The position numbers and the translations under genes are program-made. This document shows positions 2,240 to 38,513 of a DNA stretch of 64,000 nt, piece by piece; the stretch's first letter is position 1; each line of letters opens with the position of its first letter. This DNA comes from Hawksworthiomyces lignivorus (lineage: Eukaryota; Ascomycota; Sordariomycetes; Ophiostomatales; Ophiostomataceae). The stretch covers positions 248,001 to 312,000 of the forward strand of contig NTMA01000016.1 in the NCBI GenBank assembly GCA_002917075.1, written 5' to 3'. The notes beneath the pieces were generated by a model. It was not told the origin of the DNA and searched no databases. It saw nothing but the letters and a program-made list of their open reading frames with translations.

Positions 2240-3095
2240 CGTATCGACTAGAGGATATCGAAACTTGTGTTGTAAATAGCCTCCTTATTCGATACCATAT
2301 CATATATCAATGATTAAGGCCAGAGTTGAGGAATTGCTAAGATTTAAACTTTTAAAAGTTGTTCAGGCTCCTTCCTAACAAAGCAGCACGCTATTTACTT
2401 CCTAGCGGGTCAGATTTCCGTTTTCAGAGTCATTTTCAGTGAACAAAAAAAAATAAATATCTGTTGTCAATTCATGAGGTCTACTGAACACTCCATAATG
2501 TAATTGTCATGCTTGTCGAACACTCTTGAGAATTTCACGGCTAGGTCATCTCCCATCGGATCTCTGTGAGACTAGCTGATTCCCCCACAGCGGCCCCAGT
2601 GCGGAGTTGCTGGATCCATTTGCACACTCTCTGGTTGATATTGCCAACTCCACTCTAATCACTTGCACCCATCCATTACGTTTGGATGCCATCTTTGTTG
2701 CCATTAACCTCTGCTTGTCTCCGAATAAGGAAATTTTCCTCAGCTTGCAGCGCCAACGTAGCCCACCTACTTAGTAGAAAAACAATGACCCACTCTTGCA
2801 AGAATATGACGGAGTCTCAGGGCGGAAACTCCGGGGAGGAGAAGTATGAGTTAAGAGTAAAGTTTGTCGGAGTCTGATAAATTCCATGTGCTACCTAAAA
2901 TCACTCGCGGAGTGTAAGAGCTGGAAGATAAATAATATGTGCATTTAAACACTAAGACAAGACGCTTTGGAGCCCGCGTCGAAAGATAATCATTTGTGGT
3001 TTCAGACTACCTCATGATACTTTACTCTCTATTTACATCCATCTGAGAACATATTCAGGATCTGCGCATACATTTCTCGCGGCAAAACATTCATC
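2240..3095. promoter_or_regulatory. Shared divergent intergenic region of the CPR and P450 genes
   Basis: These 856 bp separate the two start codons and must hold both promoters. I found no gene. A short open frame at 2686-2877 resembles nothing I know. The stretch before the P450 start is pyrimidine-rich. Co-regulation is inferred from the head-to-head layout only. Confidence 0.5.
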
Positions 3096-4747
3096 ATGTA
3101 TTCTATTGTTTTGCCAATAGCAGTGCTAACTGCAACGGTACTTTACTTTATCGTCTGGCCCGTGATGGTGTATTTCCAGGATAAGAAGGGATTTCGCAAG
3201 TATCCTAATATGAACTGGATTGCAGGGATATCAGATTGGGGGTTTATGTGGGAGGCTCACAAGGGATTTCGTTCGCGGAGATTGTATGAGATGCACCGAC
3301 AGCATCCCATTATCCGAATAGGACCTAATTCCTTGTCCTTTGCCGGCGGCGATGCCATCAAGGTAAGATATTGCATTTTGTGTCTTTTGAACGAATCACT
3401 TAGACTGACTTAGACAAACAGGACATGTACGGTCATGGAACACCCTGCACTAAGGATACATTCTACTCTGTCTTGGCGGGTACGCATTACCACTTGGCAG
3501 ATGTTGTGGATAAACCAGAGCATGCTCGCAAGCGCAAGGTGTTAGCCGCAGCATATGCACTGAAGAATCTCGAGGACTGGGAGTTTAAGGTGGCGGACAA
3601 GACGGTGCGGTTTCTACGTGCAGCAGATAGAGCCTGCACGTCACCTCTGCCTGCGAGCCAGACATGCCCTGACCCCGCTGACCTTTCATTTGACTACCGG
3701 GCTTTTACAAACTTCTTCACTCTTGATGCCATCGCCGACATTGGATTATCAGAGCGCCTTGGGTTCTTAGATGCTGGAGATGACGAATGCGACGCCGAAG
3801 ACCGCAAGGACGGGTCCATACGCCGGGTCAAATACCGCGAGGCTTTATATGCAACAGCTCGCGCACAGTCTCAACTGGTCTGGGCATACGACTGGTACAA
3901 AGTTAATGTCTGGCTGTCGAAGCTGATTTGCCCAGGGTATTTTGGAAAGTTGTGGAAATTGAACAAAAACTGGGACGACATAGTGTATCACCGGGCTACA
4001 AAGCGGCTGGCGCGCTTCGAGAAAGGCGAGAAGCTCAACGACTTTTTCCAGGTTCTGCTTGAAGACCAGCGATCAGGTCAGCCACACAACCTGGAATGGG
4101 GCGAGCTTGTTGCTGAGACGAGCATCATGATGAACGCAGGATCCGACACGACCGCGCTTGCAATGGCAAATGTCATGTATCTTTTGCTGAAAAACCCTGG
4201 TGTCATGCAAAAGCTTCGCGCGGAGGTGGACACTGCTCTCTCACAAGACGATGTGGTGGCTCCATACCAGAAAGTTAAATACCTTCCTTACTTGCGTGCC
4301 GTCTTGGACGAAGCTCTGCGCATCATCCCTCCAACCACGTTTGGCCTTCCCCGTCGCACGCCAGCGGAGGGTATGGCCATCGCTAATGAATTTGTGCCTG
4401 GCAACACTAGTGTCAGTATTTCGGCGTACGTCGCACATCGCGACGAGTCGGTTTTTCCAGAACCTGAAATATTTCGTCCTGAGCGCTGGCTGGAACAAGA
4501 CGCCAAGTCACTGCAAAGTGGGTTCATTTCCTTCAGCACGGGCGCCCGCGGATGCATCGGCCGTAACATCTCATATCTGGAGCAGTCAGTATTATTGGCC
4601 TCAGTTGTGCATCGGTATGAGCTGGCGCTGAGCTCGCCTGAGTGGGAGCCTGAGCGGGTTGAAGGTACCACGTTCCAGATGCTAGAGATGCCAGTGAAGA
4701 TTTGGAAGAGAGAGTCGTCAGCGCCGAGTATTCCAGAGAACCCTTGA
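3096..4747 (+). CDS. Cytochrome P450 monooxygenase (benzoate 4-hydroxylase-like)
   Basis: This is a haem monooxygenase anchored in the ER. The exons are 3096-3362 and 3422-4747, with a 59-nt intron, giving 530 aa. An N-terminal membrane helix covers about residues 3-25. The oxygen-binding I-helix motif AGSDTTAL is near 327, the K-helix ExxR (EALR) near 387, and the haem loop FSTGARGCIGR has its Cys near 467. The segments RIGPNSLSF, HYHLADVVDKPEHARKRK and SAYVAHRD are typical of fungal P450s often annotated as benzoate 4-monooxygenase-like or as tailoring P450s of secondary metabolism. I cannot fix the CYP family or the substrate. Its neighbours are a CPR (divergent), a Zn2Cys6 regulator (convergent, 238 bp away) and an MFS transporter, so an oxidative catabolic or small biosynthetic unit is plausible. 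Confidence 0.9.
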
Positions 4748-11066: not shown

Positions 11067-13414
11067 TTGAATTGGCAGCATTTATTTGCAGCAAGCATGG
11101 GGCTCTGCGAAGTTTGCACTCGTTTCTTTGAGACAACCATCTTCCTTCTAGATGGTACCAGCTCCAGCTATCCTCACCAACCTTCAATTGAGACTTTTCT
11201 CGAATCCGTGGATAAGCAATGCCGTTTTTGCTGCCGCTTATTCGGGAGGTTTGATTCTGATGAACAAGCCCTTCTCAGGCGCGTTATCACAGACATGTCG
11301 CCGATGTCTGTCAACGACCAGTTTGTGAAAATTGGCTTTTACCATAGAATGACGTCTGCTGGCACACGATTAGTCTTCATATTCAATCCTACATCTCCAA
11401 CCTCTCCTCTTTATGTTTCACTTCCATATTGGGGAGATCTATACGATGCGATTAGCAAAAGAGCTTTTGATAAATTCGACAGTGAGATTGTCGTTGCTCC
11501 CTTAACAGGTACGTCAGAGACATTTTATATGAGCGACCTAAGGAGCATAGCTAAGACATTGTGTCCATAAAAGGACATAGTACAGGTCCCCGGACTATGC
11601 CCAGATCAAGCAGTACGAACTCGTTGCATACAATTGATACTATTCGATCGTGGACTCAGGAATGTTCTGACAAGCACACTATCTGTAAAGCGAGGCGGAG
11701 CGATCACTCATGGCGCCCAACTCGTCTGCTGGATCTCGGCCTCAACATCTTTCCAGACAATCGGAGATGTCGTGTTGTGGGTCGGGACTTAATTACTCCC
11801 GATGAACCATATGCGACTCTCAGTCACCGATGGAATGTTGGAAACGTCATTTGCCTCACAACAAAAAACATACTGGAATTTTACACGTCTGGAGTGCTCA
11901 TCACGTCTTTGAGCCGCACATTTCAAGATTGTATCTCATTCGTTCGGGCTATGAATATTCGCTACCTTTGGATCGACTCCTTGTGCATAATACAGGAAGG
12001 AGACAACGGCCTCGATTGGAGCCATGAAGCAACGACTATGCATGATGTATACAGAAACTCTTATCTTAACATTTCGGCCGATTGGGGCGTGGATGGAAAC
12101 GGACTTTTCTTTCAACGCAAAGTCGAGCAGTTTGAGGAGACAGAGATCAATATCACAACGTCTCAAGATGGGGTTGTTAGTCGTGAATTATACCGGAGTA
12201 TCGATGTCCAGCAGTGGGATGTGGAGGTTACTGACTCGCCACTGAATAAGAGAGGATGGGTTCTACAAGAACGCCTTCTGTCACCTCGAAATGTTCATTT
12301 CTGTCGCAATGAGGTGTTTTGGGAATGCTGTGAAGCGACTCTCTGTGAGTCTTTCCCCAAGCAATATGTATCCGCCGATATGCTCGATTATAACAACACG
12401 GCCAACCTTAAGCGGTTCAACGGAGATGAACTACTGAGGCGCTGCAATATATTACAAAGAGTGCGGGACGTTACGAAAGTAAATCCCCAGTACCAGCTGT
12501 GGAATGACATCCTATCGACGTATGGGGGGTGTCACCTGACCTTTATCGCAGACAGATTAGTCGCTGTCTCTGGAGTTGCAAAATATCTCAAGCCTGGCTT
12601 GAAAGATACATACGTGCTTGGTTTGTGGTTGAAATACTTAGCAGCAGAGATGATGTGGTGTCGCAACAGTATGCCACTGATTGAGCGAAGTGATTCTAAG
12701 GATATGGCTAAATTGCGCTCCGGCACACAGAGATCTGGATCTAGGCCACCGAGCTTCTCTTGGGCAGCTGCAGATGGTGATTTTGCGCCAGGACACCCTC
12801 TACAAGAAGGTATGCTGCCGAAGGTCTCATGCGTCCATTATCGCAGCGGGTCTTCTGTTGCACAAGAGAGGCTTTGGCTAGAGGATGTCTTTACGCCGGC
12901 AGCAGACGCTATGGTAGAAGTCAAAGTTACAGCCACTATAAAACGAATGCACCTTCAACGCGACAGCAGCAACCTATACCTCGTTGTAGCACCGATGATG
13001 GGTTCCGGTTCTACTCTCGAGGGTATAGGATTACAGACTTCGTCCAGTACAGCTTCGCTATCTGAAGATTCTGAAACCGATACCTATGTCATGGCATTTC
13101 TCGACCGCCCCATATATAGCTCCGAGCTTCTTGCTCTCCAGAAGAAGGTTTTATACTACGCGCCGTGGAAGGACACCTTTGGAGATAAAGGCGCGCCTTA
13201 TGTGCACATGGATATCTATCAAGATCCAAGCCTTAATTTGATGCTGCTCGAGGTTGCTGACGAGGGAATGGGGCGATATTGGAGGATTGGGATTTGCATG
13301 GTCATGAACAGATCCCAGAGGGATTTATACACAGCTCGCCAGGATGGAGAGGATACAATTCCAAGTTGCCATTACGACCCAGAAACTCAAAGGCACACGA
13401 TATATATTATTTAA
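11067..13414 (+). CDS. HET-domain (heterokaryon incompatibility) protein 1
   Basis: HET-domain proteins of filamentous ascomycetes trigger cell death after fusion of unlike strains. The exons are 11067-11508 and 11574-13414, with a 65-nt intron, giving 760 aa with the frame closed. The second ATG at 11097 (MGLCEVC) is an equally good start. The HET core is clear: YATLSHRWN, then SLSRTFQDCISFVRAMNIRYLWIDSLCIIQ (about residues 250-285), and the late motif TDSPLNKRGWVLQERLLSPR. A Cys-pair region (LCEVCTRFF; CRFCCRLF) sits at the N-terminus. No NACHT or WD repeats follow, so it is a stand-alone HET protein. It opens the conflict-gene-rich middle of the window. Confidence 0.9.
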
Positions 13415-14434: not shown

Positions 14435-15019
14435 TTAAATATCATCAAAGAGCGGAACAAGCCTGCTCCAATCGACCGATGCTTCCACAGTGGTGCCGTC
14501 CTTTGAGACGAGCTGACTTGGTCTCAGACTGGCCATCAGATCTCTAAATTCTTCATCCGAGAGCCCGGAGGGCTTGTACGACCCATCTCGGAGATGACCC
14601 AACACGGGTGTCTCGCCATGGCAATCAATGTGGTCCGTGATGTCGAGATCGTCAGTCTGCGGGACCAACCAGATGTCCTTGACTTCGAATTTCTTGACTG
14701 AGTCGATCGCCATAATGGGATACCAGCTCTTGTCAACCTTCACCGTAATGTGGTACGTGCACTTGAGGGCCGCCGTTTCGCTGTCGTTGTTGAAAAGACG
14801 GGTGACGAATTCCTTTATGCCAAACAACAGGATCTCAGTGTTCCCGATAGGGCTGAAGTAGACGCCTTTGCCATAGTGTGTGTGCTGATTTCCCTCAAGA
14901 ACTGACGCGCGGAGAACGACTCGCTTTCCGGAGGGTTTCTTGGGATCATATCCGGCCATGATGGCATCATATCCGGCCTTGTTGGTATAATGGGTGAGAT
15001 ACGTAATTTGGGTGTTCAT
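14435..15019 (-). CDS. Putative HYD1-type ADP-ribosyltransferase-like protein
   Basis: This is a small single-exon protein of 194 aa. I start it at 15019 (MNTQITYLTHYTNK) because the open frame upstream to 15172 adds only a low-complexity leader. The N-terminal LTHYTNKAGYDAIMAG and the later HTHYGKGVYFSPI match the pattern of the ART-HYD1 toxin-type family, where HYT...G opens the domain and a GxGxYF strand follows. ADP-ribosyltransferases of this type modify target proteins or nucleic acids using NAD+. There is no signal peptide from this start. It lies at the edge of the toxin-like array and is in the same orientation as three of its members. The family call rests on two short motifs; a hypothetical protein is the alternative. 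Confidence 0.5.
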   Translation of the reverse strand: MNTQITYLTHYTNKAGYDAIMAGYDPKKPSGKRVVLRASVLEGNQHTHYGKGVYFSPIGNTEILLFGIKEFVTRLFNNDSETAALKCTYHITVKVDKSWYPIMAIDSVKKFEVKDIWLVPQTDDLDITDHIDCHGETPVLGHLRDGSYKPSGLSDEEFRDLMASLRPSQLVSKDGTTVEASVDWSRLVPLFDDI

Positions 15020-16588
15020 TTTGACTGGCGTGAGAAATGACAAAGGGGAGTGTAACGAGGTAGAGGAGACGAAAGGCACTAGAGAGCAACTTCCTGCTGG
15101 CTTCCTTAGCTTGGAGGAGCGGCAGGAGACCTCATCGACGGACGGGAGCATGAAATAAATATTTGACGACAAAATTGGGGTTGCTGAATCCTGGTCTTTC
15201 AGCCGGATAGTCTCTTCCGGTTTTCTCGGCTAGCTACATGGAAAGTCAATGTCATGTCTTTCCTCAGCTGAACTGCACTCCCGTCACCTTCGCGTGACAT
15301 CAGGTAGACATCCTAAGAATGCGGCAATAATTCTGGAAGAAATGCCACCGGTTCAACAGAACTCTACAAATGTGCAAAGTGTGTGTGCCTGGAGCACATC
15401 GTTCGTGCTCGCCTCCACACTGTGATCGAATCAGGTACTTCAGTCAGCCTCACATGCAGCTGTCACTGAAGCAGAGGTCGAGCTATTGATCATGGTCTTT
15501 TGTTTGTGGGGGTCTGCATGTTTACTCGTGAAGTGACCGGGGACGACAGAAAACAGGAAATGTTATGCAATTGATCCGGGGTGTCTGAAGAATGATGCAA
15601 GGGACCGAGAAGAGCAACAAACAGAAGTCCTCAACCCGATTTCCCGAAGCGAGCTAGGTAGGTTGCCACTTGGATGTCTGGCTCTCATCGATATTCTGGC
15701 TAGATTGTTGCCATTGTGGGCGCCGCTTCAGGCTATTGGTTGTGGAAGGTCTAGACTATACTGTGGAACTAAAGACCATGCATAAGACTCTCTAATCGTT
15801 GGTGTTTCTGCACGCCATCGCCATGCTGGCTTTGGACAACTTGCTCTTCAGCTGCCATTATGCAAGCCACATTAGGCTTCACTGCGCCAAATACTTCCTA
15901 CCGGAGGGTTTCCCCGAATGGGCAAGCACTCCATTCCACAGCTAGACGAAGAACGTGCCAGCAGAGCACAGCATGCAGGATGCAATGAAAGTTATGTGCA
16001 TTTTCTGCAGAGATGGGAGCTGGATGAACCGAAAGTGGCTGAAAGTCGCACCCAGGTGTTCCTTAAGGATCCTTCCGGAACTCCGCTACACTCTAGAGTT
16101 CCTCTAGGCACTGCAAGGCGCCTGCTGCAAGGAGGAAAACAGAGAACCCCAAAAGTCCCTTGGGGCAGCACCCAGGACTCTAAAAATCCCGGACCAATGG
16201 ATTCATTCCGCGTTCCTCGCTACTCAGCACATTGCTCTTCTTCTACAGTGTTTCATTGGATCAACAGTGGATTAGCACATTTTGTGTCGGCGGCGCGTGC
16301 CGTGACTGCATTTCCGAGGAGACAGTTTTCTATGGCGCGTCAAGGAACCAATCATCATTCTTCAAACATGCAAAATTGGTGCCAGCTGCCTAGGCGCCAT
16401 CGCCAATGAAAGTGCCCAATGTGCCAGACTGTTGTCGGGAAACACTACCTAAAGCAACGACCTTGAGAATCACCACCCTCGATCGAGCATACGAGGACCG
16501 CGCTACTTCATATAAAAATCACCTTCTGTACGTAAATTTTTGAGTATCGGGTGGCTCTCCTTAGCTTCAACTCCTAATTGCTGCGCCA
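15020..16588. other. Intergenic, one unsupported open frame
   Basis: A 163-codon plus-strand frame at 15918-16409 has odd composition (rich in Arg, Ser, Pro and His) and no family resemblance. I do not call it. The remainder looks non-coding and leads into the NACHT relic. Confidence 0.45.
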
Positions 16589-16795
16589 ATTCTTGTTGAC
16601 CAACAACCATCGATTATCTCGCATGTGAAGAAGAAATACGATCATGCATGTCATCCATTCTTCAGAGACACGAATGCCTGGGTACCTCGGTCGAAGATGT
16701 TTACCGACATTCTGGAAGGCCCCGGCCTGCGTCGCACCTATCTGATCATCGACGCGCCTGAAGACTTTCTTCTACGTATTCCTCGACTTAACAAA
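16589..16795 (+). pseudogene. Relic of a NACHT-domain NLR (HET-E-like) gene
   Basis: One frame encodes ILVDQQPSIISHVKKKYDHA, then FFRDTNAWV, KMFTDIL and TYLIIDA in order. This is the run around the Walker B strand (LIIDALDE in intact genes) of fungal NACHT NLRs. Only about 65 codons survive. The upstream Walker A segment is absent, the expected DALDEC reads DAPEDF, and the similarity stops soon after. No WD or other repeats follow. I take it as a dead fragment of an incompatibility-type NLR, left between the ART-like gene and the toxin-like array. The match is to remembered family patterns, not to a search. Confidence 0.75.
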
Positions 16796-16842
16796 CCTCA
16801 ATCTGCAACGATGAGCCTGGGATAAAATAGATCCGTGGCTAC

Positions 16843-18059
16843 TTAGGCCCGAGTCATGTATGGGACTTCAATCGTCTGCCCCATGACATAATCCCAAAGA
16901 GGAATCTTTTCATCGTCCTGCAGCGTGGTAGAGAACTGCTCCCACATGCTGCTCTCAAAGACAGCCTCGTAACAGAGCACACTGAATTCGCCCCTGATGC
17001 GAGATTGACTTCCGCCCCCTTTACCCCTGACGAGGTCATAGACTGAACTCTTGACCTCAAACGAGAGAAGTAGTATGTCTTGAGTGCAAAAGCAAATGCA
17101 CAAGTCAGTCTGGCGGGTGTCAAGAGCCTGTTTTCGGGGGTAACATACAAGAAGTAACACCTCTGTTCGACGGCTCATAGACGTACTTGTCCATGACGAC
17201 ATTCTTCATCTGGATAGACTCACGACTTCCCTTCTGTAACGCGTGAACGATGCCTTGAAAAACCGGCTCAACAGCCTCGATAAGAACACAATCGACGTTC
17301 GTCCAGTTCTGTATCACCTTCTCGACTAGCTGCGCGTGCAACTCTCCAGGCAAACAATCGTAATAGTATACCACATTGGCGGGAAACCTCGTGGTACGCA
17401 GCCTGGATGTCATCACGTTAGCTTTTTAGTTTTTCCTGCCTCATAACACTTCGTTACACCTACCAAGACATCTTCACCATATCTTCACACGCAATCTCCG
17501 CAAACTGCTTGCTCAGTTGAGCCTGCTGCAACGGATCATCCGGCATGCCATACCGCCTCGCCACCTCCTCCCACCACTTCTTGGACGACCAGCTCCGAAA
17601 GTCCTTCATGCTCTTCCGACCGCGCCTCAACGCCTCCTCATCCACAAACCCACCCCCTGACGCAGTCGGCCTCGGTATATTCACATACCACAGCGACGGA
17701 CACACGCGATGCAGCCCCGCAGCCCATGCCGCAATCACATTCGCCGACACCGGCGCAGCCGGGCCCCCAGCGCCAACCACGCTGTAAAAGTCGGCTGAGT
17801 TGTTATGCAGCAGCGCGAGCGCCTGCACGGGGATTGGAATGTCCCCGACCCGCATGGCTTGGATTAGCTCGCAGGTGGAGGGCATGACGAAGTCGGGCAT
17901 GCTGGCACTAACCCTCATGACGTCAGTGAAATCGAAAAGGGAGTTTGCAACGGGGCCTTCTTCGTCGGGGATGACTGGCTCAGTGGCGAGTCGGTCTAGC
18001 ATGGGTGGGGCGGAGGAGAGGGTGGCTGGGGTATCTGAGTCTGTTGCAGGTTGCTCCAT
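16843..18059 (-). CDS. Toxin-like array, member A (distant paralogue, two introns)
   Basis: The protein is of unknown function. The exons are 18059-17464, 17402-17149 and 17078-16843, with introns of 61 and 70 nt. The model is 361 aa with the frame closed, matching the 345-356 aa of its neighbours. The start at 18059 is chosen because the frame upstream is CT-rich, leader-like sequence. The C-terminal half has the order seen in members B-D: a helix with ELH, a hydrophobic helix (VFQGIVHALQ), then a strand (SYILLLSFEVKSSVY) and FSVLCYEAVF. The N-terminal half is divergent. There is no signal peptide or obvious membrane span. I infer a distant fourth member of the family; without a profile search this could be coincidence. 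Confidence 0.5.
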
Positions 18060-18537
18060 GGCCAGGGGGCTTTGGAAGTGGGAAGGAAAGTGGAAGGGGA
18101 TTGGAGGAATAACAAAGTAAAGGAATTCTTCAGAGACATGAAAGGAGAAGCGGTGATGGACAAATAGGACAGGCTCTGGGGAGGGGGGCGGGTTTATCAG
18201 GGAGGAAGGACGGAGTGGAAGAGATAGGACGCAGTGGAGGAGATGGAGGGAGACAGTGTTTAAATAGGAAAAATCCAATCCTTGGTCTCCAGACTGGGCT
18301 GCCCAGGTGGCGGCTGAGTTGGAATCAGGGCAGCTCGGGGTCCAGATCATCAGCACACGCAGGATAGGAACCAGGCATAGCGAGTTGCGGGACCGGAGCA
18401 ACCGCAGAACATTGGAGGCAGAAATATCCCAGTCAATTTCTCGTCTACCTCCAAAAAGACATGGCTACCTAACTTCTCTGACAAATTTCCAATCATCTCA
18501 GCACCCAATCAACCATACCTGACCGATCTCTCGTCTA
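18060..18537. other. Spacer between members A and B
   Basis: This 478-bp stretch is the likely promoter and leader of member A, with purine- and CT-rich tracts, plus the 3' flank of member B. No separate gene is seen. Confidence 0.5.
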
Positions 18538-19575
18538 CTACTTCGCAGCTGCATCGATGGGAACCGGGAACTTCGTCTTTCCGTACTGCTTAAACGTCTG
18601 CTTGGTGACTTCCTGGAAAATTGCTTCGAGCTGAGGCTTGGCTGCCAGCCACCTGGTGACGTTGAGGTCGATGTCAACCACGACGTACTGCATGTTAAAG
18701 GTGCTGTCCTCGTGGTTGGCCTTGTTGGTGGCCCACTTCCAGGTGCTGGCGTCGATGTGCATGTAGACGATGCGGGTTCGCGGCTGGTAAATCCAAATGG
18801 GGTGGTCGGTACTACCCGCGATGTTGGTTGCAATGGTCTGGTGGACACGGATGGTCTGGTCCACAGTGCTGGTGTTCTTTTCTTTGGTGACGGTGACGTC
18901 GCCTAGGGCCTTGACGAAGTTGGTGAGGATGCCGTCCAGCTGCTTCTTGGCCACGTCGGTCAGGCTGAACCCAGCGAAGAGCTCACTGATGAATCCAAGG
19001 TGCAGCTCTGTCTTGGAAAATTTCCGCGTGAAGGTGTGTTGGGTACCGCTGCCGAAACTGAACATGCCAGCCAGAGGTGGACCCAACATGACGTTGTAGG
19101 TCGAGTCGGCCATGTCGGCGAAGGCTTGGGCTGCTTCCGCAGGCACCGTGATGCGGTACTCCTCTGGGTGACCACGCTTCGTGCGCCTGGCAACATTGGA
19201 CATGGCGATGAACAGGTCGGCAATTGAAGTGATGTCTCGGAGATGGCCAAAATCCTCGAGCGCCTTACGAACGTGCGCCTCATCAGACAGAGGGTTGTCG
19301 GCGCTCTTGGGAGGGAGGATGGGCACGTCCTGCGGCATAGGCGCTAGGCCCTTGGCAGCATCAGCGACAGGGCCTCCCGCTGCTGTCGACATCCGATCCC
19401 AGAGCTCCGAGATCCCTGAGCCAGCAGCGGCATCCCCCGCCCCCGCCGTAACGGGGCCGTCGGAGGACGCGAGTTCCTGTGCCACCAACGCAGTCTGGAG
19501 CGGGTCGCTGGCGCGGATTAGGATATCGGCCACGGGCTGAAAGATGCCAAAGTCAATAGGGGTGGGGAAAGACAT
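18538..19575 (-). CDS. Toxin-like array, member B (suspected Cyt-like pore-former)
   Basis: This is an intronless 345-aa protein without a signal peptide. After a variable acidic and Ala-rich N-terminus come helices (IADLFIAMSNVA; GPPLAGMFSFGSG), a long helical hairpin (ELHLGFISELFAGFSL; LDGILTNFVKAL), then strands (RTRIVYMHIDASTW; STFNMQYVVVDIDLNV) and a C-terminal helix (KQYGKTKF). Members C and D keep the same order. The helix-layer then strand layout resembles Cyt-type cytolysins (CytB family; fungal volvatoxin A2), which insert into membranes. Lack of a secretion signal suggests an intracellular store or a cell-death role. A gasdermin-like fold is the alternative. The paralogy is seen in the sequence; the fold is inference. 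Confidence 0.7.
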   Translation of the reverse strand: MSFPTPIDFGIFQPVADILIRASDPLQTALVAQELASSDGPVTAGAGDAAAGSGISELWDRMSTAAGGPVADAAKGLAPMPQDVPILPPKSADNPLSDEAHVRKALEDFGHLRDITSIADLFIAMSNVARRTKRGHPEEYRITVPAEAAQAFADMADSTYNVMLGPPLAGMFSFGSGTQHTFTRKFSKTELHLGFISELFAGFSLTDVAKKQLDGILTNFVKALGDVTVTKEKNTSTVDQTIRVHQTIATNIAGSTDHPIWIYQPRTRIVYMHIDASTWKWATNKANHEDSTFNMQYVVVDIDLNVTRWLAAKPQLEAIFQEVTKQTFKQYGKTKFPVPIDAAAK

Positions 19576-21059
19576 GATGGTCAGTCAAAAGGCGGAATCA
19601 AATCTGAAACGGATCGAAGAAAGTGAAGGTGTCTCCTAGGGCAACGGTCAAGAATGATGGTGGAGCGGGAAAGCGTGCCGGGCTGGCGGCATTTAAGCAA
19701 GAATTGTCCCTTCTCTTTCGTTCCGGTTTCAACCACCGCAAGTGAGGGCATAAAGGGCCTTGCCAGAAGGCGCAAACTTAGTTTGCCATCCCTCCCTTGC
19801 CTTCCCAGTGGAACCCGTTCCTGTCCGCTCTACTGTCTGCCCTCCGGAGTCCCTTGTGACCTGTGTTCTTCCGTTTCTCTCGTAACTGTCCCTTCCTCTG
19901 CGCTCCCATTAGACGAACGACCCCCTCCCTCTTGACCAGCAGGGCGCTTGCTTCTCGAGATGACTTCATGCACCTGGTGGACTGAGCCGAAATACTGTCC
20001 AATCTCGGAGAAGCCTTTACCGTATCAAAGCTATGGATGTATGCTTTTTCGTCGTGGAGCTCTCTGAGCTGCTGGCCCCAATTATCGCTCACTGATGAGC
20101 ATCAGCTCCGACTTCATAGTTCATCAATGATTGATAACACCAAATGAAGCATGAAAGAGCGGTAATGATGCGAAAGCGACTATCTAAAAGACAAGTTTCA
20201 GCTGTTGACAAGACGCCTCCTAAGGCGTCACAGCGGGTCTGGATTTCAATAAAGATGATGCAGTTGTCCAGGCTTGGGCAAAAGCTGCTAGAAGCCCGCT
20301 GTGGCGCCTGCAATTAGAGACCAATTGGCTCGACTCGGAGCGCCAGTGCCAGTGCAGGCCCACACGTACATGCGCTATAACCTGTTGGAGGTTGCGTGGT
20401 CTGAGGCTCCACATCTCCAGTCTCCATCAGCGTAGGTATTTCAGCCAGACCTGTGGCTTTCATGACTTTCTTCCACACGCACACCAATATGACACAGTTG
20501 TTTGCTCTATCGGGCCGCTCAACCAAACCACATGCATGTGCGGCCGGGAGGAGGTCTAAGTCAACGCAGGGGGGAAATTCAAGTCTGGTTCATGTTGGGC
20601 ACCAAATGCCGATAGCCTATCTACACCGGGCGGAGGTCTCATCTGCACAAGATGCTCTACCACTCTGTATCCGCAATTTCCCCCACGTTGGAATGGTGAT
20701 ACGACAGGCGCAAGCTCTCGGAGCACCCCTCCGAGCCTGCGAGGCTCCGCTACCGCGCTCGGACCAGACGTCAACGTGGAAGCAGCTGCCAAGCATTGCC
20801 CATCACAGCCAGTTAAGTTCAGCGGATCATTTCTGGGTAGCGTCAACTGAAAGACATCACATAGTTACAGGAAAGGCCCGTCAAGCGGCTGGGAACTGGA
20901 AGTTTAAATCTCCTTTCCGTGCCGCGTCGTGTTTAGTATCAATTTTCATTTCGTTACGCGTGATGTATTCGAATTGAAGGCACGTACAGAAACAGGCAAA
21001 CTCTGCAACACTACAGGTAGCTAAAAAAAAATTGAACTCCATGCGGTACTGTTTCTAAA
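19576..21059. other. Intergenic between members B and C
   Basis: About 1.5 kb. The plus-strand frame at 20453-20977 has no recognisable features and I do not call it. The promoter of member B should lie at its left end. Confidence 0.5.
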
Positions 21060-22130
21060 TCATTCCTCGACCGCCTGCAAAAGCATGCAAGTCTCGCGCC
21101 CCAGACCCTGCAGCCCGTCCGCCTTGGCAATACTACTGAGCACGGCGTCGTCCTCAGCCATCTGCTTGAAAATCTCTTCAAACTTGCCCCTGTTAGCATT
21201 GTATTTGGCGTCGTCCAGTTCGAGCTCAAGAACAGTCGTGTTCAAGGTAAAGTTGATCTTCACGTCTTCCTGGGGAGGCTTGGGCTTCTTCTTCCCCCCG
21301 AACCCAGGGAGATGCCACTTTCCTGCTACCTTTTCCGTATTCAGTGTAGCCGAAGCTGGAGTGTCAGCCTGAGGAGCGTCAGAAGCAGCGTCAGCGCTAT
21401 GTTCCTTGCCACGAGAGGGGGCTAGTGTCTGCAGCACCGATGCCCAGTGTCGTAGTTTGACCGAGAAAACGACAATGCGGGTGTATGGCTTATGGATATA
21501 GATGCCACCGTCGCCGGTGACGTCGATGGATTTGACGTAATTCACAGCCACAACGTGCTTTAGATCCGACTCAGATGTATCATCGGTAGTAGTAGGAACC
21601 TTGAAAGGTTTGAGTGCAAACATGAAACCGGTGAGAACCTTGCCGAGCTTCGCCATGTCCTCCTTGTCAACCAGGCCAAGCCCGTCGAAAACGGAAGCTA
21701 GGACAATGTCATGTAGCTTTGCACTGGTCACTTCCAGGTGGAGGGTGGTAGCCGAGCCACCATCAGGCTGATGATACATGTTTGCAAGTGGACCCTTCGT
21801 GAAGGCTTGGAGAGTCGTCTCTGCCTTCTCGTTGAAGGCGGCCACATATTCGTCAGGATTGCCGAGACTGAGGTGGTGAGCCTGACGGCCACCGCCTTCG
21901 TCGCCGTCTTCGTCGGCAGAGTGGTCAGGGCCCGATCTAACGAGTGCCATGCCAGCAAAGATGCGCGCCAGTGCGGACGCGCCCAGAACAGCAGCGAATT
22001 TTTGCACCTTCTCCTCATCTTTATCGGACGGCTCGAAGGAGAAGAAGAAGGGCGGCGGCGCAGTTCCTTTCTTGATCAGGTCCGTCGGCTCTGCAATGAC
22101 TTCGCGCAGATGCAACTTCAGGTCTGACAT
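21060..22130 (-). CDS. Toxin-like array, member C (suspected Cyt-like pore-former)
   Basis: This is an intronless 356-aa protein without a signal peptide. It keeps the shared order: a helix (ALARIFAGMALV), GPLANMYHQPDG, KLHDIVLASVFDGLGL, LGKVLTGFMFALK, the strand YTRIVVFSVKLRHW and a last strand (INFTLNTTVLELEL). It differs by a Lys/Pro-rich insert of about 45 residues (GKKKPKPPQED) between the last two strands and by a shorter N-terminus. The insert could be a flexible, protease-sensitive linker, which is inference. It is transcribed in the same direction as B but 1.5 kb away, so it has its own promoter. Function unknown; the pore-forming idea is the same as for B and D. Confidence 0.65.
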   Translation of the reverse strand: MSDLKLHLREVIAEPTDLIKKGTAPPPFFFSFEPSDKDEEKVQKFAAVLGASALARIFAGMALVRSGPDHSADEDGDEGGGRQAHHLSLGNPDEYVAAFNEKAETTLQAFTKGPLANMYHQPDGGSATTLHLEVTSAKLHDIVLASVFDGLGLVDKEDMAKLGKVLTGFMFALKPFKVPTTTDDTSESDLKHVVAVNYVKSIDVTGDGGIYIHKPYTRIVVFSVKLRHWASVLQTLAPSRGKEHSADAASDAPQADTPASATLNTEKVAGKWHLPGFGGKKKPKPPQEDVKINFTLNTTVLELELDDAKYNANRGKFEEIFKQMAEDDAVLSSIAKADGLQGLGRETCMLLQAVEE

Positions 22131-23792
22131 GGCATCTGCTTTCTTGACTGTGCTACAAAGCAGGTTTGAATTGTAAGCTCAGCTCGTCCGAGAAAGAGAA
22201 ATGACAATTCACATACCCAGTAGGTGTTTGAGATGGGGCGCTCATGGTGGGCGACGTTGGTGAGGTTTGAGTCGAAAGCGTAGAAAGTGAGTGCAAGTGC
22301 TAGTGTGAGGTGCCGAGGGCTGGGGAGATTCGTTCCCGAGGAAGAGTGAGAGACGGACTTGTAATGACAAGAAGAAGCAACATCAACAGAACGATGCTGA
22401 GGTTGATGACGAGGTCTAGTAGGTGCCCGTAGATGGTGATGGTCGCTTCTATCAAGTAACATCAATCGTCGGCTCCTCACCTTCTGGTATCTCGAGAAGC
22501 ACGCTGGTCGGGCTTGCACATCCCACCGCCATCGCTACTGGCTTCCGCAGGAAAGGCGCCTGCTTACAGTGCCCCTCACATTACACCCATCAAGGTCGGT
22601 TTTCGGCTCATGTCAGTCCCTTCAGCTGCCATTCGGAAAGACCCACATGGGCGCCTACCTCAATCCTCAGCTTGCTTCGTGAACGCCACGGTGCACAACG
22701 GCTCTGAAGCCCAGTTAGGCCAGAAAGGACGGGCCAAGAGGAAAAAGACTCGGCATCATCTTTACCTTCAGTACATGTACCTACAATTCCCGCTAGTTAC
22801 AGGTAACGGCACCTGTTTAGAATCTAGATCGTCCCACGAAAGCTGCCGAGTCGAGCTAAGGTGGCCTGGCCAACCCAAAGGGGAAGTAATTCTGATGTCT
22901 ACATAAGGTACCTTAGCGAGATGTGAAGCAGCCAATGGGGAAATTTGAATCCATGCTTGTGCAGATAGTGTACACATATTCCCCACACTGGCGGCAGGAC
23001 CCGCTCCCGCTGCCTGAATTTTTTATTTATTTCCGCCCACAACTCCATGTCAGTCGCCACCCACACTTCGCATAATGAGGCTGCATTCATGTCAAAAGTC
23101 ATGGGTTTGTGATAGATACCCGGTTTTAACCAGCCTCGTGTCCACCACAATGGCTTTCGGACCGGACATGACCTCTCAGGCATCAGCATACATTTATTGC
23201 ATCCTGCATGCCTTCTCCTAGAGTCAATAATCAATAAAGAGATGCCCAGACCTCCTTGGCAACCTCCACCGGTTGGCCCGAGACTTACACTCTCAGCTCG
23301 CCACTGACGATGCAGCAACGCGAATCTTGTTGCGAAATGCGGCTTAGCTGAGGTCAAGTGTATGCCGGCTGGCACGCGTGACGTCGATTTGACACTGTTC
23401 CAGTTGGGATATGAGAAATCGGAGAGAGGTGATGGGAACCCAGTAACACGCCCCAACGAGCCTGGAAGTTACGAGGCCTGCATTTGTAGTATCTCTTATC
23501 TTGGGAGAACGCAGAGTGAAGTTACTGGTTTTGTTGAATCGCAGAAGACTTGTGAGCCGTCTGGCGAGGGACAGTAATGTCACTGGTATCGCACTAAGGT
23601 GCCGACTGTCAGAGGCCATGATCACGGGTCAGACAGGTTTGAGACGTACTACAAAAGCCGCCTTGTTCCCCGACCATGTTGTCCTAGACACGGCATCACA
23701 GGGCAAAGCTCAATCTTGAAACAGAGGAACAATCTCATCTTGATATAATATTGAATCTAACATTGGTCTCATCCCTCTCCCCGTTTTGCACA
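22131..23792. other. Intergenic between divergent members C and D
   Basis: About 1.66 kb that should hold the promoters of both divergent genes. Open frames here are short and overlap on both strands without domain resemblance. No repeat or RNA gene was recognised. Confidence 0.5.
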
Positions 23793-24842
23793 ATGGCAAC
23801 TCTCACGGTAGAAGAAGCAGCCAGCATCAACGCTTTTGTGCAGCAGCTGCAGAATGCTGCCACGGGCGCTCCTCCGGTCGATGAGGAGACGCTTGCATTG
23901 CAACTCTTAGCGAGCACCCAAGCCGACGCTGACTTTGACACTTCTCAGATCAAGTCGCTTGCAGCCGCCACTGGGGCCGCTCCAGTCGCCCTGGACGCCG
24001 GTGACGACAAGTTCAACAAGCTTGTTGAATTGATGATGAGCGACACCAAGCCACCTGAGGAGCAGGTGGGCAAGGGCAAGGCGCCCAACCCCCCGCCGGT
24101 TGTGATTGAGGACCTCATCGGCGATGACGTCGCGAGTTACGACATGAAAGCTGCCCTAGAGAACTTTGGCATCCTCAAAGACGCGCAGTCGGTCTGCCAG
24201 ATGTTCTCCAACATCATGCTATTGCAGACTAACCCCGAAGGGTTCGACATCACCAAGGGTGGCGCCGCCCTGGCGTTCAGTGAACAGGCCCGCTTGGCGT
24301 ACAAGGCCATGTCCGGCCCCATGGCCTCCGTCTACAACTTTCAGTCGGGAGAGTCTGTCAAGCACAGGTTCGAGATCCCCAAGAACCAATCTCACGAAAA
24401 GCTGCTTGGGACCATGTTCGATGGCATGGGTCTGGACGCCAAGCACAAAACAGAAATCGATGGCGAGATCACCAAATTCACCAAGTGCTTGAAAGATATC
24501 CAGATCGGGAAAGAAAGTAGCACGCTCGACTTTGCCCTGCGCTTTGGCCTCTGTCCCGTGACTAACATTTCTGCCGACGAGGCGCACGAGCTCCTCGCTT
24601 TCGAGCCCACGACATTTCTCATCTACATCAAGATGGACGCCGCAGCATGGAATAAGACTATCGACAAGAACAACAAAGAGGAGAAAATCACGTTCAGTTA
24701 CGAGCAGACCGTCACCAAGTTCGAGCTTAACGTCAATCGCTTTCTCAAGGTAAGGCCCAAGTACGACAAGATGATCGAGATAGCCACAGGCATGAGTCTC
24801 GCGAAGTACGGAGAGTTGCTCAACAAGTCTGTCAAGAAGTGA
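23793..24842 (+). CDS. Toxin-like array, member D (suspected Cyt-like pore-former)
   Basis: This is an intronless 349-aa protein. I start it at 23793 (CACAATGGCA, good context) rather than 23751. It has the clearest family pattern: AALENFGILKDAQSV, a helix (CQMFSNIMLLQTNP), GPMASVYNFQSG, SHEKLLGTMFDGMGL, IDGEITKFTKCLK, the strands TTFLIYIKMDAAAW and KFELNVNRFLKVRP, and AKYGELL near the end. It aligns by eye with B over most of its length, including the FG-L-D opening of the first helix pair. It has no signal peptide. It is the only member on the plus strand and lies 635 bp before the subtilase start, in the same direction. A membrane-active role is inferred, not shown. Confidence 0.7.
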   Translation: MATLTVEEAASINAFVQQLQNAATGAPPVDEETLALQLLASTQADADFDTSQIKSLAAATGAAPVALDAGDDKFNKLVELMMSDTKPPEEQVGKGKAPNPPPVVIEDLIGDDVASYDMKAALENFGILKDAQSVCQMFSNIMLLQTNPEGFDITKGGAALAFSEQARLAYKAMSGPMASVYNFQSGESVKHRFEIPKNQSHEKLLGTMFDGMGLDAKHKTEIDGEITKFTKCLKDIQIGKESSTLDFALRFGLCPVTNISADEAHELLAFEPTTFLIYIKMDAAAWNKTIDKNNKEEKITFSYEQTVTKFELNVNRFLKVRPKYDKMIEIATGMSLAKYGELLNKSVKK

Positions 24843-25477
24843 TGATTAGGGCGGCTCGTGGCCAGGAATGTGTGCGCAGCAACGAGATTAGAGTAGATAC
24901 CTTGCCTTAGTTTCGGTAGATTGAAAGTACAAGATACTCGTCCATGTGAAAAAGACCCGAGTTCCCATGCCGCAGCCAAACGTGGTGTGATATCAAGCTG
25001 TGCCTTGCTGATCCATGTCTGGGCCAAGGGCTCTTGCATGTGCTCCCCCACCATTACCATCGGTCATCGGTAGACCAAACTAGGGCCCAACCTGCCCATC
25101 CAGGAGTGCCTAGACCCATGGTATGTATGCGTATGCATGTACAAAGCAGCTACCCTGCATGAACACAGGGGCAAAGTTCCAGGCTGGTTGTGGGCGTGTG
25201 CGCTGCAGGTGTTCAGCTGGCTTCAACCCATGCGTGTTCTAGTCTCTTCCAATCCTTTAAAAGGCTCGCCCGAATTGGTCCCCAGTCGCCCAAAAGGGCT
25301 TCCAACTCCCGGGCAGCGTTTTAACGACTTTTTTAGTCTCTGTTTCCATTCTCTGGACACTTGCTACTTCATTACAACTCTCAGTTCCCCATCTTCAACT
25401 ATTCTACAATCACTATAACCCAACCACACTCAAGTTTACCATTCAACTGGCACAACCGCACAAAAACCATCCTCAAG
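24843..25477. promoter_or_regulatory. Spacer and subtilase leader
   Basis: These 635 bp lie between member D and the protease start. The last 150 bp are CT/CA-rich leader typical of fungal 5' untranslated regions. No gene is seen. Confidence 0.5.
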
Positions 25478-27857
25478 ATGTCAGCAGATGCCGTCATTAA
25501 CGGCAAGAGCTGGAGCACCGACATAACAGATCGGCAGGCCGACGTGTCGACTTCAGGGTACATCCTGATCCGCACGACCGGATCCCCTCTCAACAAGACC
25601 CAGAAGAGGGAACTAAAAGCTCTAGGAGTCGACATCCAACAGTTCCACGGCGGCGGCGGCCCCGGCGAGCACGAAAACGCCGAGGAGAAACAGCAGCAGA
25701 TCTACCTCTGCGGCTACCCCAAGGGTCAGCTGCTTGAACCTCTCCGCGCCTTGGCGTATATTGATTTCGTCGACGTATACCCTAACGACTTGGTAATCCA
25801 TGATGCTGTGCAGCGGCTGAGGGCGAGGCCAATGCGGGCAGTTCCTACTAACGACCTACCACCATCAAACGCCAGTGGTGGTGATGCACGTGGTGAGGCA
25901 TTCGCAATGATGGCTCCGGGTCCAGTGATGTCTATACAGGCAGCGAACGAATTTGTTGATGAGACAGTGGAGGTGGATGTTTTGCTGCATCACGATGTTG
26001 GAGAGATCTCACAGGAGCTGCTGGGCAAGATGGCCGCCGTCCCAGGTTTCATGTGTTTTGAGACGGATGAGGCCTCGCAGGGTGTGGTAAGACTCCGAAT
26101 CGACGAGGATTCTCTGGAGCAAATCGCAGCGCTGGATGAAGTACGGGTTATCCACCCGGTCAACGAGCGTGTGCTCATGGCGAATGTTGCTCGCCGGATT
26201 TTGGGGTTTACTCCAGAGGGGGGTGATGAGGTGGTGACGAGCGGCAACTCGAACGGGATTTCCGGTTCGTCTTTCTCGTCTTCTCGATATCGGGGCCTCG
26301 ATCAGGTCGTCTGTGTGGCGGATACCGGATTCGACAAGGGGAGCACAACAGACGTGCACGACGCGTTCACGGGCCGGGTCAAGTCGCTGTATGCCTGGGG
26401 ACGACCGGGAGGCGCCGCTGACGATCCTGATGGTCACGGTACACATGTTTGCGGATGCGTACTAGGCTGCGGTACCCACGCCTTGGAAGGCCACATCAGC
26501 GGTGCCGCCCCAGCGGCCACCCTCATTCTTCAGTCGTTCTTCGTCCGCTTCAACTGGCAACGCCAATCCATCCTCGGCGGCTACCCGGCTGACCTTGGCG
26601 TACTCTTCGCCGAGGCTTACGAAGCCGGCGCGCGCATCCACACCAACTCGTGGGGCACGCCGCCGTCCGCCAAGGACAACTTCAAGCAGCGCCCATACGA
26701 CAGCAGCGCCGAGAGCATCGACAAGTTTGTCTGGGACCACCCGGACATGACCGTCCTCTTCGCCGCCGGCAACGATGGCCAGGACGGCAACCTCGACGGG
26801 CGCATTAACGAGCGTTCGCTAGGCGCCGAGGCTTCGGCGAAGAACTGCATCACCGTGGGCGCGTCCGAGAACATGCGGCCCGGTTTAAAAGCAGAGACGC
26901 AGGGCCGGCCGTACACCTACGGTTTGTTCTGGCCCAGGAAGTTTACGGTAAATCCGCTCAAAGACGACCACCAGGCCGACAATCCTGAGGGGCTCGCGGC
27001 GTTTAGCAGCAGGGGGCCGACGGCGGAGGACAGGATCAAGCCGGATGTGGTCGCCCCTGGAACGGCCATCTTGTCGACGAGATCGCGGGCAAAGAAGTAT
27101 GTCGGTGACGTGGACGCCAGGGGTGTCTCTGGGGATGATGGGTTTCTCTACCAGTCAGGGACGAGCATGGCCACCCCGTTTGTGGCGGGGTGTTGTGCTG
27201 TGTTGCGGGAGGCGCTGCTTGCGAATGGATATAAAGATGTGACGGGTCCGGGTGTCGTCCAGCCCACTGGCGCACTCGTCAAGGCGCTGCTCATCAATGG
27301 TGCGCTCCCCGTCAAGGGGCAGTATGTCCCGCATGAACTGGGGGATGGGCCGAATCCCCATTCTGGCTTCGTGAGTGATCATACCTGTGAACTAACCGGA
27401 GAGCGTAGTCAACGTACTGACACAACACCAGGGCCGAGTCAACATCGCCGAGACTCTCTCCATGATCGAGCCCGGCATATCAGGAACCGGTGGGTACGGC
27501 ATCGGCCGCATCGACGAGGAGACTGAAGAACCAGTGGAAGTGGACATAGCGATCCCCGAAGGCGATAATCTCACCTTCAAGATCACCCTGACCTACCCCG
27601 ATATGCCCGGCGCCTCGCTCGCCAACGATCTCAACCTCGTCGTCATTTCGGCAGACGGCACAAAACAGCGTCATGGAAACAAAGGCGATCAGGATTTCGC
27701 TGTTGGTGCAACGAAGCCATTTGACCGGAGGAACAACGTCGAGCAGGTCGTCTGGACGCATGTAGCGGGCGACAGGCTGAAAATTGTGGTGAAGCCGTAC
27801 CGCATCATGTTGGCCGACGTTCCGTTTGCGTATGCTTGGAAATTTCTGCGGGGATGA
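25478..27857 (+). CDS. Subtilisin-like serine protease (S8) without an evident signal peptide
   Basis: This is a serine endopeptidase. The exons are 25478-27370 and 27432-27857, with a 61-nt intron, giving 772 aa with the frame closed. The catalytic triad motifs are all present: VVCVADTGFD (Asp), DDPDGHGTHVCG (His) and YQSGTSMATPFVAG (Ser). The oxyanion-side NSWG and AAGNDGQDG are also present. Two propeptide-like modules precede the catalytic domain, at about residues 22-110 and 165-235. A beta-sandwich domain follows (ITLTYPDMPGASLANDLNLV). The start at 25478 (MSADAV) has good context; the frame continues 39 codons upstream to 25361, but these look like leader and form no convincing signal peptide. 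An intracellular subtilase next to a suspected pore-former family suggests a processing partner, as known for fungal HET-Q2. That link is inference. Confidence 0.92.
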
Positions 27858-29152: not shown

Positions 29153-30529
29153 ATGACACATTGTGTTCCATACGGGAAATCACCTTCGGCTCCAAGATTC
29201 ATGGCGGAACACGAGGCACCTCGCATCATTGTTCTCAGCGACGGGACCTGGTGTGGCCGGGAGACCAACACTCAGTCGAATATTTATCGACTAGCCAAGC
29301 TCATCGGAATTGAAATCGAGAACTCGAATTCTGAAAATGAACATACTTTCTGCGCTAATAACACTCATGCCCGTTATCGCCATGGCGTTGGTCTAAATAG
29401 TACATTCCTCGACTACCTCTTCAACGGCATTACTGCGCAAGACCTGGCAGACGAGTGCATCCGCGCCTACAGGTTCATCGTAGAACACTATACGGCGGAG
29501 CACGAGATATGGCTCCTTGGGCTCAGCCGTGGCGCCTATACCGTGCGATGCGTGGCTGGGATGATAAACAACTGTGGTATCGTTCGAAAATGCAACACGC
29601 CGGCAGAGACGGATCTGCTCTGCGAGGAGGTATACCGCATTTACCGCTCGCGGTATGCCATCAATGCTCCACATACAACGCAGTCGAAGGATTTTCGCAA
29701 GCGGAAGTCTTGGCCTCTAATTGGGGACGAAAAAGATGGCGAACCACGCCGCCGTCCGCCGGTCAGCTTCATGGGCTTGTTCGACACCGTCGGCGGGCTG
29801 GGCATTCCAACCTTCACTGGGGGCGTAGGACTCGACTGGCCTGAGTTTTACGACAACGTTGTGTCCTCTGTTGTGGACCAGGTGTGCCACTTTGTGTCAC
29901 TGCACGATCGGTTCTATATCTTCCAGCCCTGCCTCGCAATCCGGAAAGACGGATCGATGCTGGGGATCCATGAAGAATGGGTCCCTGGCGCGCATTATGA
30001 TCTGGGCAGGCAACGCTTTCGATTTTTTCGAAGTGGAGCCGGTTGGTTTGAGAGTGTTTTGGCCAATTGGATGTTTGCCAGTAAGGTCATCGAACCAAAT
30101 GCGGTCCTTGCAGATCTAGTGCTGTTGAAGATGTTGCGGTGCATTCAGAAGTATGATGAAGCCAGTGCCATCATTTCCAAGAAGAAGCTGGATGACGAAA
30201 TTCAAAGCCTGCGGCAAGCTATAACAGGTCCTAAGCCAGCGATAGGGGACGGTGACGTATATACCAAGGTTATAGAGTATTTACCATTTGGAAGCACGAC
30301 CGGAAAAATTTTCAGTAGCATATCCAAAACAGCACCCGCTATTTTGCAGCTACTATTCGCACCCAGAGACCGCTTGATTTCTAAGGATGGTGCGATTGTG
30401 TATGACTTTCGATTACAAGATGAAGATATCTCTATCGCCGTGGAGGAGACTGCTCAGATAACGAAGGAGAGGTACCCTTCTAGATCACTGCAGTCATGGG
30501 CTTTGAGAGTGACTGCAACGAAACCTTGA
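29153..30529 (+). CDS. DUF2235 alpha/beta hydrolase
   Basis: This is a predicted serine hydrolase of the DUF2235 family, related to the catalytic domain of bacterial type VI lipase effectors. It is a single exon of 458 aa; a start at 29201 (MAEHEAPRI) is also possible. Family marks are IIVLSDGTWCGRETN at the N-terminus, RYRHGVG with GITAQDLADECIRAYRFI, the nucleophile elbow LLGLSRGAYTVR (GxSxG-type, Ser near 127) and FMGLFDTVGGLGIP. No signal peptide is seen. Fungal members are common in multicopy form; their substrate is not established and a phospholipase-like activity is inferred from the bacterial relatives. It lies downstream of the subtilase, separated by 1.3 kb. Confidence 0.9.
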   Translation: MTHCVPYGKSPSAPRFMAEHEAPRIIVLSDGTWCGRETNTQSNIYRLAKLIGIEIENSNSENEHTFCANNTHARYRHGVGLNSTFLDYLFNGITAQDLADECIRAYRFIVEHYTAEHEIWLLGLSRGAYTVRCVAGMINNCGIVRKCNTPAETDLLCEEVYRIYRSRYAINAPHTTQSKDFRKRKSWPLIGDEKDGEPRRRPPVSFMGLFDTVGGLGIPTFTGGVGLDWPEFYDNVVSSVVDQVCHFVSLHDRFYIFQPCLAIRKDGSMLGIHEEWVPGAHYDLGRQRFRFFRSGAGWFESVLANWMFASKVIEPNAVLADLVLLKMLRCIQKYDEASAIISKKKLDDEIQSLRQAITGPKPAIGDGDVYTKVIEYLPFGSTTGKIFSSISKTAPAILQLLFAPRDRLISKDGAIVYDFRLQDEDISIAVEETAQITKERYPSRSLQSWALRVTATKP

Positions 30530-37910: not shown

Positions 37911-38513
37911 TCAAATCTCCGAGCCAAAGGACGGGTACTGTAGCGCTATGATGCCGTCGCACGAGTAGCGCGACACGTATGGGCTGCTGGTGGTGGAGTC
38001 GCTGACCAAGACGCCACCCGAGGGCGTGGTGATGGTAAAGGAGAATTTGCCGCCCGCCTGCGCCTGAGCGTAGACGATGCGCAGCGGCACGTAGGTTTGG
38101 GCGGGCAGGTTGAACGAGAAGGTGCCGCTGCCCGCGATGGCGGCCTCGGAGTTCCAAATGGCCTTGACGTCGGCATTGTCGCCCGTCCAGCCGGCGTACG
38201 CCTTAGCCCCGATCCAGGCGTAGAGTCCATCGTCGACGTTAGAGACAGTCAGTTGGTACGTGCCCGCCTCGCAGCTGTAGAGGTACGTGTGGTGGTTCAG
38301 AGCAAAGTAGGAGGTCGAAAACTCTTGCGTAGAGTCGTAGATGGGCTCCACGGCGTCGTAAGTGTACACGCCGCCGATGTAGGTGGTGACACCGACATAC
38401 TCGGGATCCTCTTCCTTGAGGTTCTGCGGCACAAAGTTGGGGTAGTCGGTGCCCGAGTTTGTGGTTGGGTTGTAGAGAACTGACGAAAACGAGTGAAATG
38501 TCTGTCGTTTCAT
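37911..38513 (-). CDS. GLEYA adhesin-domain protein, N-terminus unresolved
   Basis: GLEYA domains are extracellular beta-sandwich lectin-like modules of fungal adhesins. The frame covers the domain core: GTDYPNFVPQNL, YVGVTTYIGGVYTYD, FALNHHTYLYSCEAGTYQL, VDDGLYAWIGAKAYAGW and YVPLRIVYAQAQAGGKFSF. It ends after the strand DGIIALQYPSF. What is missing is the start: the conserved beginning of the domain and any signal peptide should precede VLYNP. The acceptor-like CAG at 38482-38480 suggests an upstream exon, but the only donor I find nearby would make a 36-nt intron in the wrong phase. It may be 5'-truncated or have an exon I did not find. The cysteines and Ser/Thr stalk of full adhesins are absent. 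Confidence 0.7.
   Translation of the reverse strand: MKRQTFHSFSSVLYNPTTNSGTDYPNFVPQNLKEEDPEYVGVTTYIGGVYTYDAVEPIYDSTQEFSTSYFALNHHTYLYSCEAGTYQLTVSNVDDGLYAWIGAKAYAGWTGDNADVKAIWNSEAAIAGSGTFSFNLPAQTYVPLRIVYAQAQAGGKFSFTITTPSGGVLVSDSTTSSPYVSRYSCDGIIALQYPSFGSEI

Follow-up and report, generated by a model that had tools for sequence, protein, structure and literature searches.

Protease-gated pore-formers in fungi are known as gasdermins, and the locus described here raises the question of whether an unrelated second fold occurs in the same arrangement. It lies in a stretch of 64,000 nucleotides from Hawksworthiomyces lignivorus (contig NTMA01000016.1, positions 248,001 to 312,000; hereafter the window) and comprises the genes of three proteins, designated B, C, and D, and of one S8 subtilase. 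An earlier interpretation made from the letters alone (hereafter the sequence-only reading) had proposed a toxin-like family of three clear members and one probable member next to an activating protease. In this work, we found that B, C, and D are related, that the models of B and C match a fold with membrane-active representatives, and that orthologs of the four genes recur in linkage with one another in other fungi.

Three related proteins and an S8 subtilase

The gene for B has no intron (18538-19575, minus strand; 345 amino acids), and D is encoded by a single exon (23793-24842, plus strand; 349 amino acids). The gene for C (21060-22245, minus strand; ~373 amino acids) probably starts at 22245 with a short first exon (22217-22245), followed by a probable intron (22153-22216) and a second exon (21060-22152). 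This first exon is one of five splice options and was chosen because its start matches that of the Echria ortholog. The subtilase gene (25478-27857, plus strand; 772 amino acids) has two exons (25478-27370 and 27432-27857) separated by a GT-AG intron of 61 bases (27371-27431); with this intron removed, the gene ends at 27857, the position given by the sequence-only reading.

When profiles were run against the 609 frames of the window (stop to stop, 50 or more amino acids), B, C, and D ranked first with each of their three profiles, and the next frame had an E value of 0.36 or worse with any of five profiles. Profile-profile comparisons by hhalign connect all three proteins (B-D, E = 1.2e-54; B-C, E = 1.6e-18; C-D, E = 2e-15). 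Since the profiles recovered only these three and the profile-profile E values join them, the family has three members here rather than four. Searches of the source genome (43.7 Mb in 191 contigs) with B and D returned just B, C, and D plus one match at E = 0.7, the count of close copies of the subtilase was one, and all four genes are single-copy in this genome. In a Pfam scan at E ≤ 1, B and C had no line and D had only a chance line to TetR_C_3 (E = 0.056).

The probable fourth member, which we took to be the open reading frame at 17460-18401 (minus strand), was rejected. It is outside the best six frames of every profile, its own-genome search returned only itself, and its 17% identity comes from a forced alignment. 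Its sole Pfam line, to BRX (E = 0.32), is at chance level. Together with the frames at 17120-17416 and 16843-17202 on the same strand, it could represent the exons of a single gene that has no annotation and no credible Pfam family.

The AlphaFold models of B (predicted local distance difference test, pLDDT, 83.4; predicted template modeling score, pTM, 0.86) and C (in a form of 356 amino acids; pLDDT 78.8, pTM 0.77) adopt the Cyt/Evf fold, which is the sole PDB fold that stands out, through Evf, volvatoxin A2, and Cyt chains. The VIA-align Z scores to Evf are 14.2 for B and 11.9 for C, those to volvatoxin A2 are 9.0 and 7.7, and those of both models to Cyt toxins are ~7-8; the best unrelated PDB chains reach 2.1 for B and 2.9 for C. 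This comparison, which the sequence-only reading had put forward as a check, thus agrees with a membrane-active type of fold. Based on its profile homology to B and C, D is predicted to belong to the same fold family. Protein B carries ~75 additional N-terminal residues, mostly helical, on the modeled fold.

None of this likeness is apparent at the sequence level. Against PDB sequences, neither sequence profiles nor D run singly gave anything at E ≤ 10, and PF01338 (Bac_thur_toxin) produced no line for the three proteins in the Pfam scan at E ≤ 1. A search of the source genome with PF01338 gave no match, yet its controls were silent as well, such that this result is uninformative. Gasdermins appeared neither as a Pfam line, where fungal gasdermins may be missed, nor among the fold-search rows shown, a scope that leaves room for an unlisted gasdermin match. 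The best match in a library of viral structures was M1I283 (E = 6.7e-4, template modeling score ~0.2).

The models and alignments also point to candidate functional sites. In C, a loop at about residues 239-290 of the 356-residue form, just before the last long strand, is disordered (pLDDT 26-56 at 241-290) and mostly variable but keeps an aromatic-GGKPKP-type motif (W in 11/12, F in 10/12, and the first G and first K in 13/13 rows with a letter). As a conserved motif in a disordered loop, it is a natural candidate for cleavage or membrane contact. The B of the window has no cysteine, and no column has cysteine in half of the 17 B rows; Cys348 of C is kept in 12/13 rows and Cys135 of D in 13/18. 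In the N-terminal extension of D, a block of seven residues (30-36) is identical in 18/18 aligned rows. At about residues 40-52 of B, in a low-confidence part of the model, there is a conserved Gly-Pro/Ala-rich stretch, and some D proteins have a similar one.

The S8 protease had been described as having an intact triad, and we reached the same conclusion. It matches PF00082 (E = 1e-37), and D321, H359, N471 (oxyanion), and S602 (numbering of the open reading frame) are invariant in an alignment of 13 rows picked from the window and 120 listed relatives. The triad codons are at 26321 (Asp), 26435 (His), and 27164 (Ser) on the plus strand. The catalytic core is near those of SubHal (5fax; E = 1.1e-54) and of 1wmd (E = 3e-53), an alkaline subtilase that we take to be KP-43. 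At E ≤ 10, Pfam gave no line in the N-terminal part or the second exon; PF00082 is the only family seen, and no ANK, TPR, WD40, or NLR sensor part was found, such as many but not all proteases of fungal gasdermin/S8 clusters carry. Within the first 45 residues, no 10-residue stretch exceeds a hydropathy of 1.5 in the 13 S8 rows, a measure of hydropathy and not a signal-peptide prediction. The corresponding N-terminal maxima across the 17 B, 13 C, 18 D, and 13 S8 rows range from 0.2 to 1.9, without any strongly hydrophobic stretch. Judging from these sequences, the subtilase seems to stay in the cytoplasm. The subtilase shares ~44% identity with P0134, a protein of Streptomyces, and its fungal family may have come from bacteria.

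Recurrence and evolution of the gene set

Linkage with the protease in other genomes had been named as a point to check. We compared 36 B-type, 13 C-type (one of which is the chimeric model P0032), and 26 D-type homologs with the 120 best-ranked of 1064 S8 homologs, and inferred linkage from equal lengths of the longest contig recorded for each protein. Among these, 23 lengths are common to at least two kinds and no length recurs within a kind; 14 of the 23 include an S8 protein. Twelve of the shared lengths are below 60 kb (6378 to 56761 bases), seven of them with the protease, whereas equal length on megabase contigs indicates a shared chromosome only. The 14 linked proteases are all at ranks 1-28, with none among the 92 at ranks 29-120. 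On contigs of at least 6 kb, a partner is present for 19/26 B, 6/10 C, and 12/19 D proteins. The full set of four kinds was seen in just two places, the window and an Echria contig of 4.9 Mb, and three further contigs have three kinds.

Gene tags provide a finer view. In Gaeumannomyces, the tags for S8, C, and B are consecutive (RB595_010187, RB595_010188, and RB595_010189). Closely spaced pairs were found in Colletotrichum kahawae (D, CKAH01_06473; B, CKAH01_06475), Fusarium falciforme (B, FALCPG4_012503; D, FALCPG4_012505), Xylaria bambusicola (S8, RRF57_000582; B, RRF57_000584), and Echria (B, QBC47DRAFT_366440; D, QBC47DRAFT_366442). In Colletotrichum caudatum, one gene model has the front of C fused to the tail of B, as adjacent genes on the same strand would give. 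The recurrent linkage among orthologs of B, C, D, and S8 is a new result; searches of the open-licence PMC literature listed no description of such a cluster. In bacterial and archaeal genomes, 467 pattern stretches were found, and in IMG/VR 31, none of them confirmed as relatives; each of these scans used two short peptide patterns, so these are weak negatives.

In the family tree, built from 37 B, 13 C, and 27 D rows (77 in all; P0032, although counted in the linkage, was left out), the three types form separate clades with support of 96 for B, 100 for C, and 98 for D, which indicates that the triplication predates the sampled genera. In the S8 tree (121 rows), all 15 linked proteases (14 plus that of the window) are in one clade of 40 rows with support of 99. 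The linked proteases do not form a clade of their own, as this label needs 12 changes within the 40-row clade (shuffled mean 14.5; 10/500 shuffles as low); many of the unlinked rows there may stem from cut or other assemblies. Mantel correlations are 0.92-0.96 for B and S8 (12 contigs), B and D (nine), and D and S8 (six), and weak for C and D (four contigs; 81/2000 permutations as high). Common descent by itself would account for these values, which do not prove an interaction.

The sequence-only reading had placed the DNA in Hypocreales; all four proteins are nearest to those of Echria macrotheca (Sordariales). Between genera, the B, C, D, and S8 proteins are ~40-80% identical. With single copies and this moderate identity, the set is less suggestive of a rapidly evolving het locus, without excluding one. 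In the B, D, and S8 trees, Colletotrichum (Hypocreomycetidae) groups with Sordariales, apart from Fusarium, and in the B and S8 trees Gaeumannomyces (Sordariomycetidae according to NCBI) also groups with Colletotrichum and Sordariales. For the placement of Colletotrichum, joint transfer and ancient paralogy are both possible explanations.

Neighboring genes

Several neighbors had been counted as parts of a conflict system. Nothing found here ties them to the recurring unit, although no search was aimed at this question. A candidate HYD1-like ADP-ribosyltransferase (ART) gene (14435-15019, minus strand) is single-copy in the genome and has a PF15633 match of 15.5 bits, below the curated cut-off of 25. 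The dead NACHT (NLR) fragment (16565-16822, plus strand), a stop-free piece of 86 amino acids without a Pfam line, was upheld as a relic: 18 further places in the genome match it with E values no worse than 3.7e-4, and the two of these that were scanned are HET-NACHT proteins. The flanks are, as proposed, a HET gene (11561-13414) and a gene with a type VI secretion system Tle1-like catalytic domain (29153-30529; PF09994, presumably the former DUF2235). Farther away, the window has additional HET-domain genes at 39061-41079 and 46285-47664, an open reading frame with a GLEYA domain at 37911-38513, and, at its left end (19-4747), a reductase with flavodoxin, FAD, and NAD domains together with a cytochrome P450.

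Possible functions and comparison with known systems

The toxin-fold pair, the cytoplasmic-seeming protease, and the recurring sets together suggest a protease-switched membrane-damaging system unlike known gasdermins. Our best reading is a protease-gated, multi-subunit, membrane-active system in the cytoplasm that would be analogous to gasdermin/S8 pairs with another fold, to which we assign a probability of roughly 0.42. By this analogy, we infer that B, C, and D would be held in the cytoplasm as inactive forms until the cell is injured, undergoes fusion, or is invaded, whereupon the subtilase would cut at least one of them. The likeliest sites would be the disordered loop of C with its aromatic-GGKPKP motif or the N-terminal extensions of B and D. 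The trimmed proteins could then form a membrane-active, probably mixed, oligomer that would open the membrane of the fungal cell itself or of an invader. Of the arrangement foreseen by the sequence-only reading, the Cyt-like fold (in the models of B and C) and the linkage were thus recovered, while cleavage and pore formation or membrane lysis are steps suggested by the analogy. If true, with three divergent subunits maintained as a group in several Sordariomycetes orders, fungi would have built a protease-pore switch more than once, and Cyt/Evf proteins would gain a natural home within the producing cell. It is somewhat unlikely that the set amounts to a gasdermin-independent, pyroptosis-like cell death of ascomycetes, in which a three-subunit Cyt/Evf-fold pore would be switched on by its own cytoplasmic subtilase and the genes would be inherited, and possibly transferred between orders, as one unit.

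The main alternative is that B, C, and D are cytoplasmic toxins stored against grazers, swallowed by nematodes or insects feeding on the hyphae and matured by the subtilase to act in the animal gut. The fold includes Cyt toxins, reported to be insecticidal and active after proteolytic maturation (PMC5390079), and the lack of an N-terminal hydrophobic stretch in the B, C, D, and S8 rows is consistent with such storage, for which the defense lectins of fungi against fungivorous nematodes, reported to be cytoplasmic (PMC13324453), are a precedent. However, Pfam shows no receptor-binding or lectin domain, and gut proteases could mature the toxin, which would then not require a conserved partner protease; we regard this role as somewhat unlikely.

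It is quite improbable that the proteins are harmless and serve in lipid binding or membrane remodeling, with the fold kept for a lipid pocket and turnover under the subtilase. The covalent palmitate of Evf and the putative fatty-acid pocket of Cyt proteins, as described in PMC5390079, fit this idea, as do the single copies and the moderate long-term conservation, but the genes seem to be patchily distributed and coupled to a dedicated protease, and the best-known fold relatives are toxins or virulence factors. Because linkage alone leaves undecided which partner acts on which, B, C, and D could also, instead of being cut by the subtilase, regulate, inhibit, or chaperone it. We consider this very unlikely: it would be strange for a single protease to have three diverged regulators, and the Cyt/Evf fold is not known among subtilisin inhibitors.

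Compared with known proteins, Evf (2w3y) shows only 8-10% identity and no sequence-profile match; it is palmitoylated on a cysteine, whereas the B of the window has no cysteine and the B rows no conserved one. Evf is bacterial and is not known to occur with a subtilase. Unlike volvatoxin A2 and Cyt proteins, B, C, and D have no PF01338 match, are longer, and are three diverged paralogs beside their own protease gene. The subtilase shares its catalytic core with SubHal and 1wmd but has ~270 extra N-terminal residues that belong to no Pfam family, and no apparent signal peptide. Among fungal systems, ~63% of gasdermin genes are reported to be clustered with S8 protease genes (PMC10197012), and HET-Q1 is reported to be cleaved by HET-Q2 (PMC12881547). 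The locus resembles HET-Q1/HET-Q2 in being a small cluster in which an S8 protease accompanies a protein that is likely to be membrane-active. It differs in that its best fold matches are to Cyt/Evf and not to gasdermins, in having three effector genes, in a protease without sensor repeats, and in moderate conservation and single copies of its genes; gasdermin genes, in contrast, are described as numerous and with strain-specific expansions (PMC10197012).

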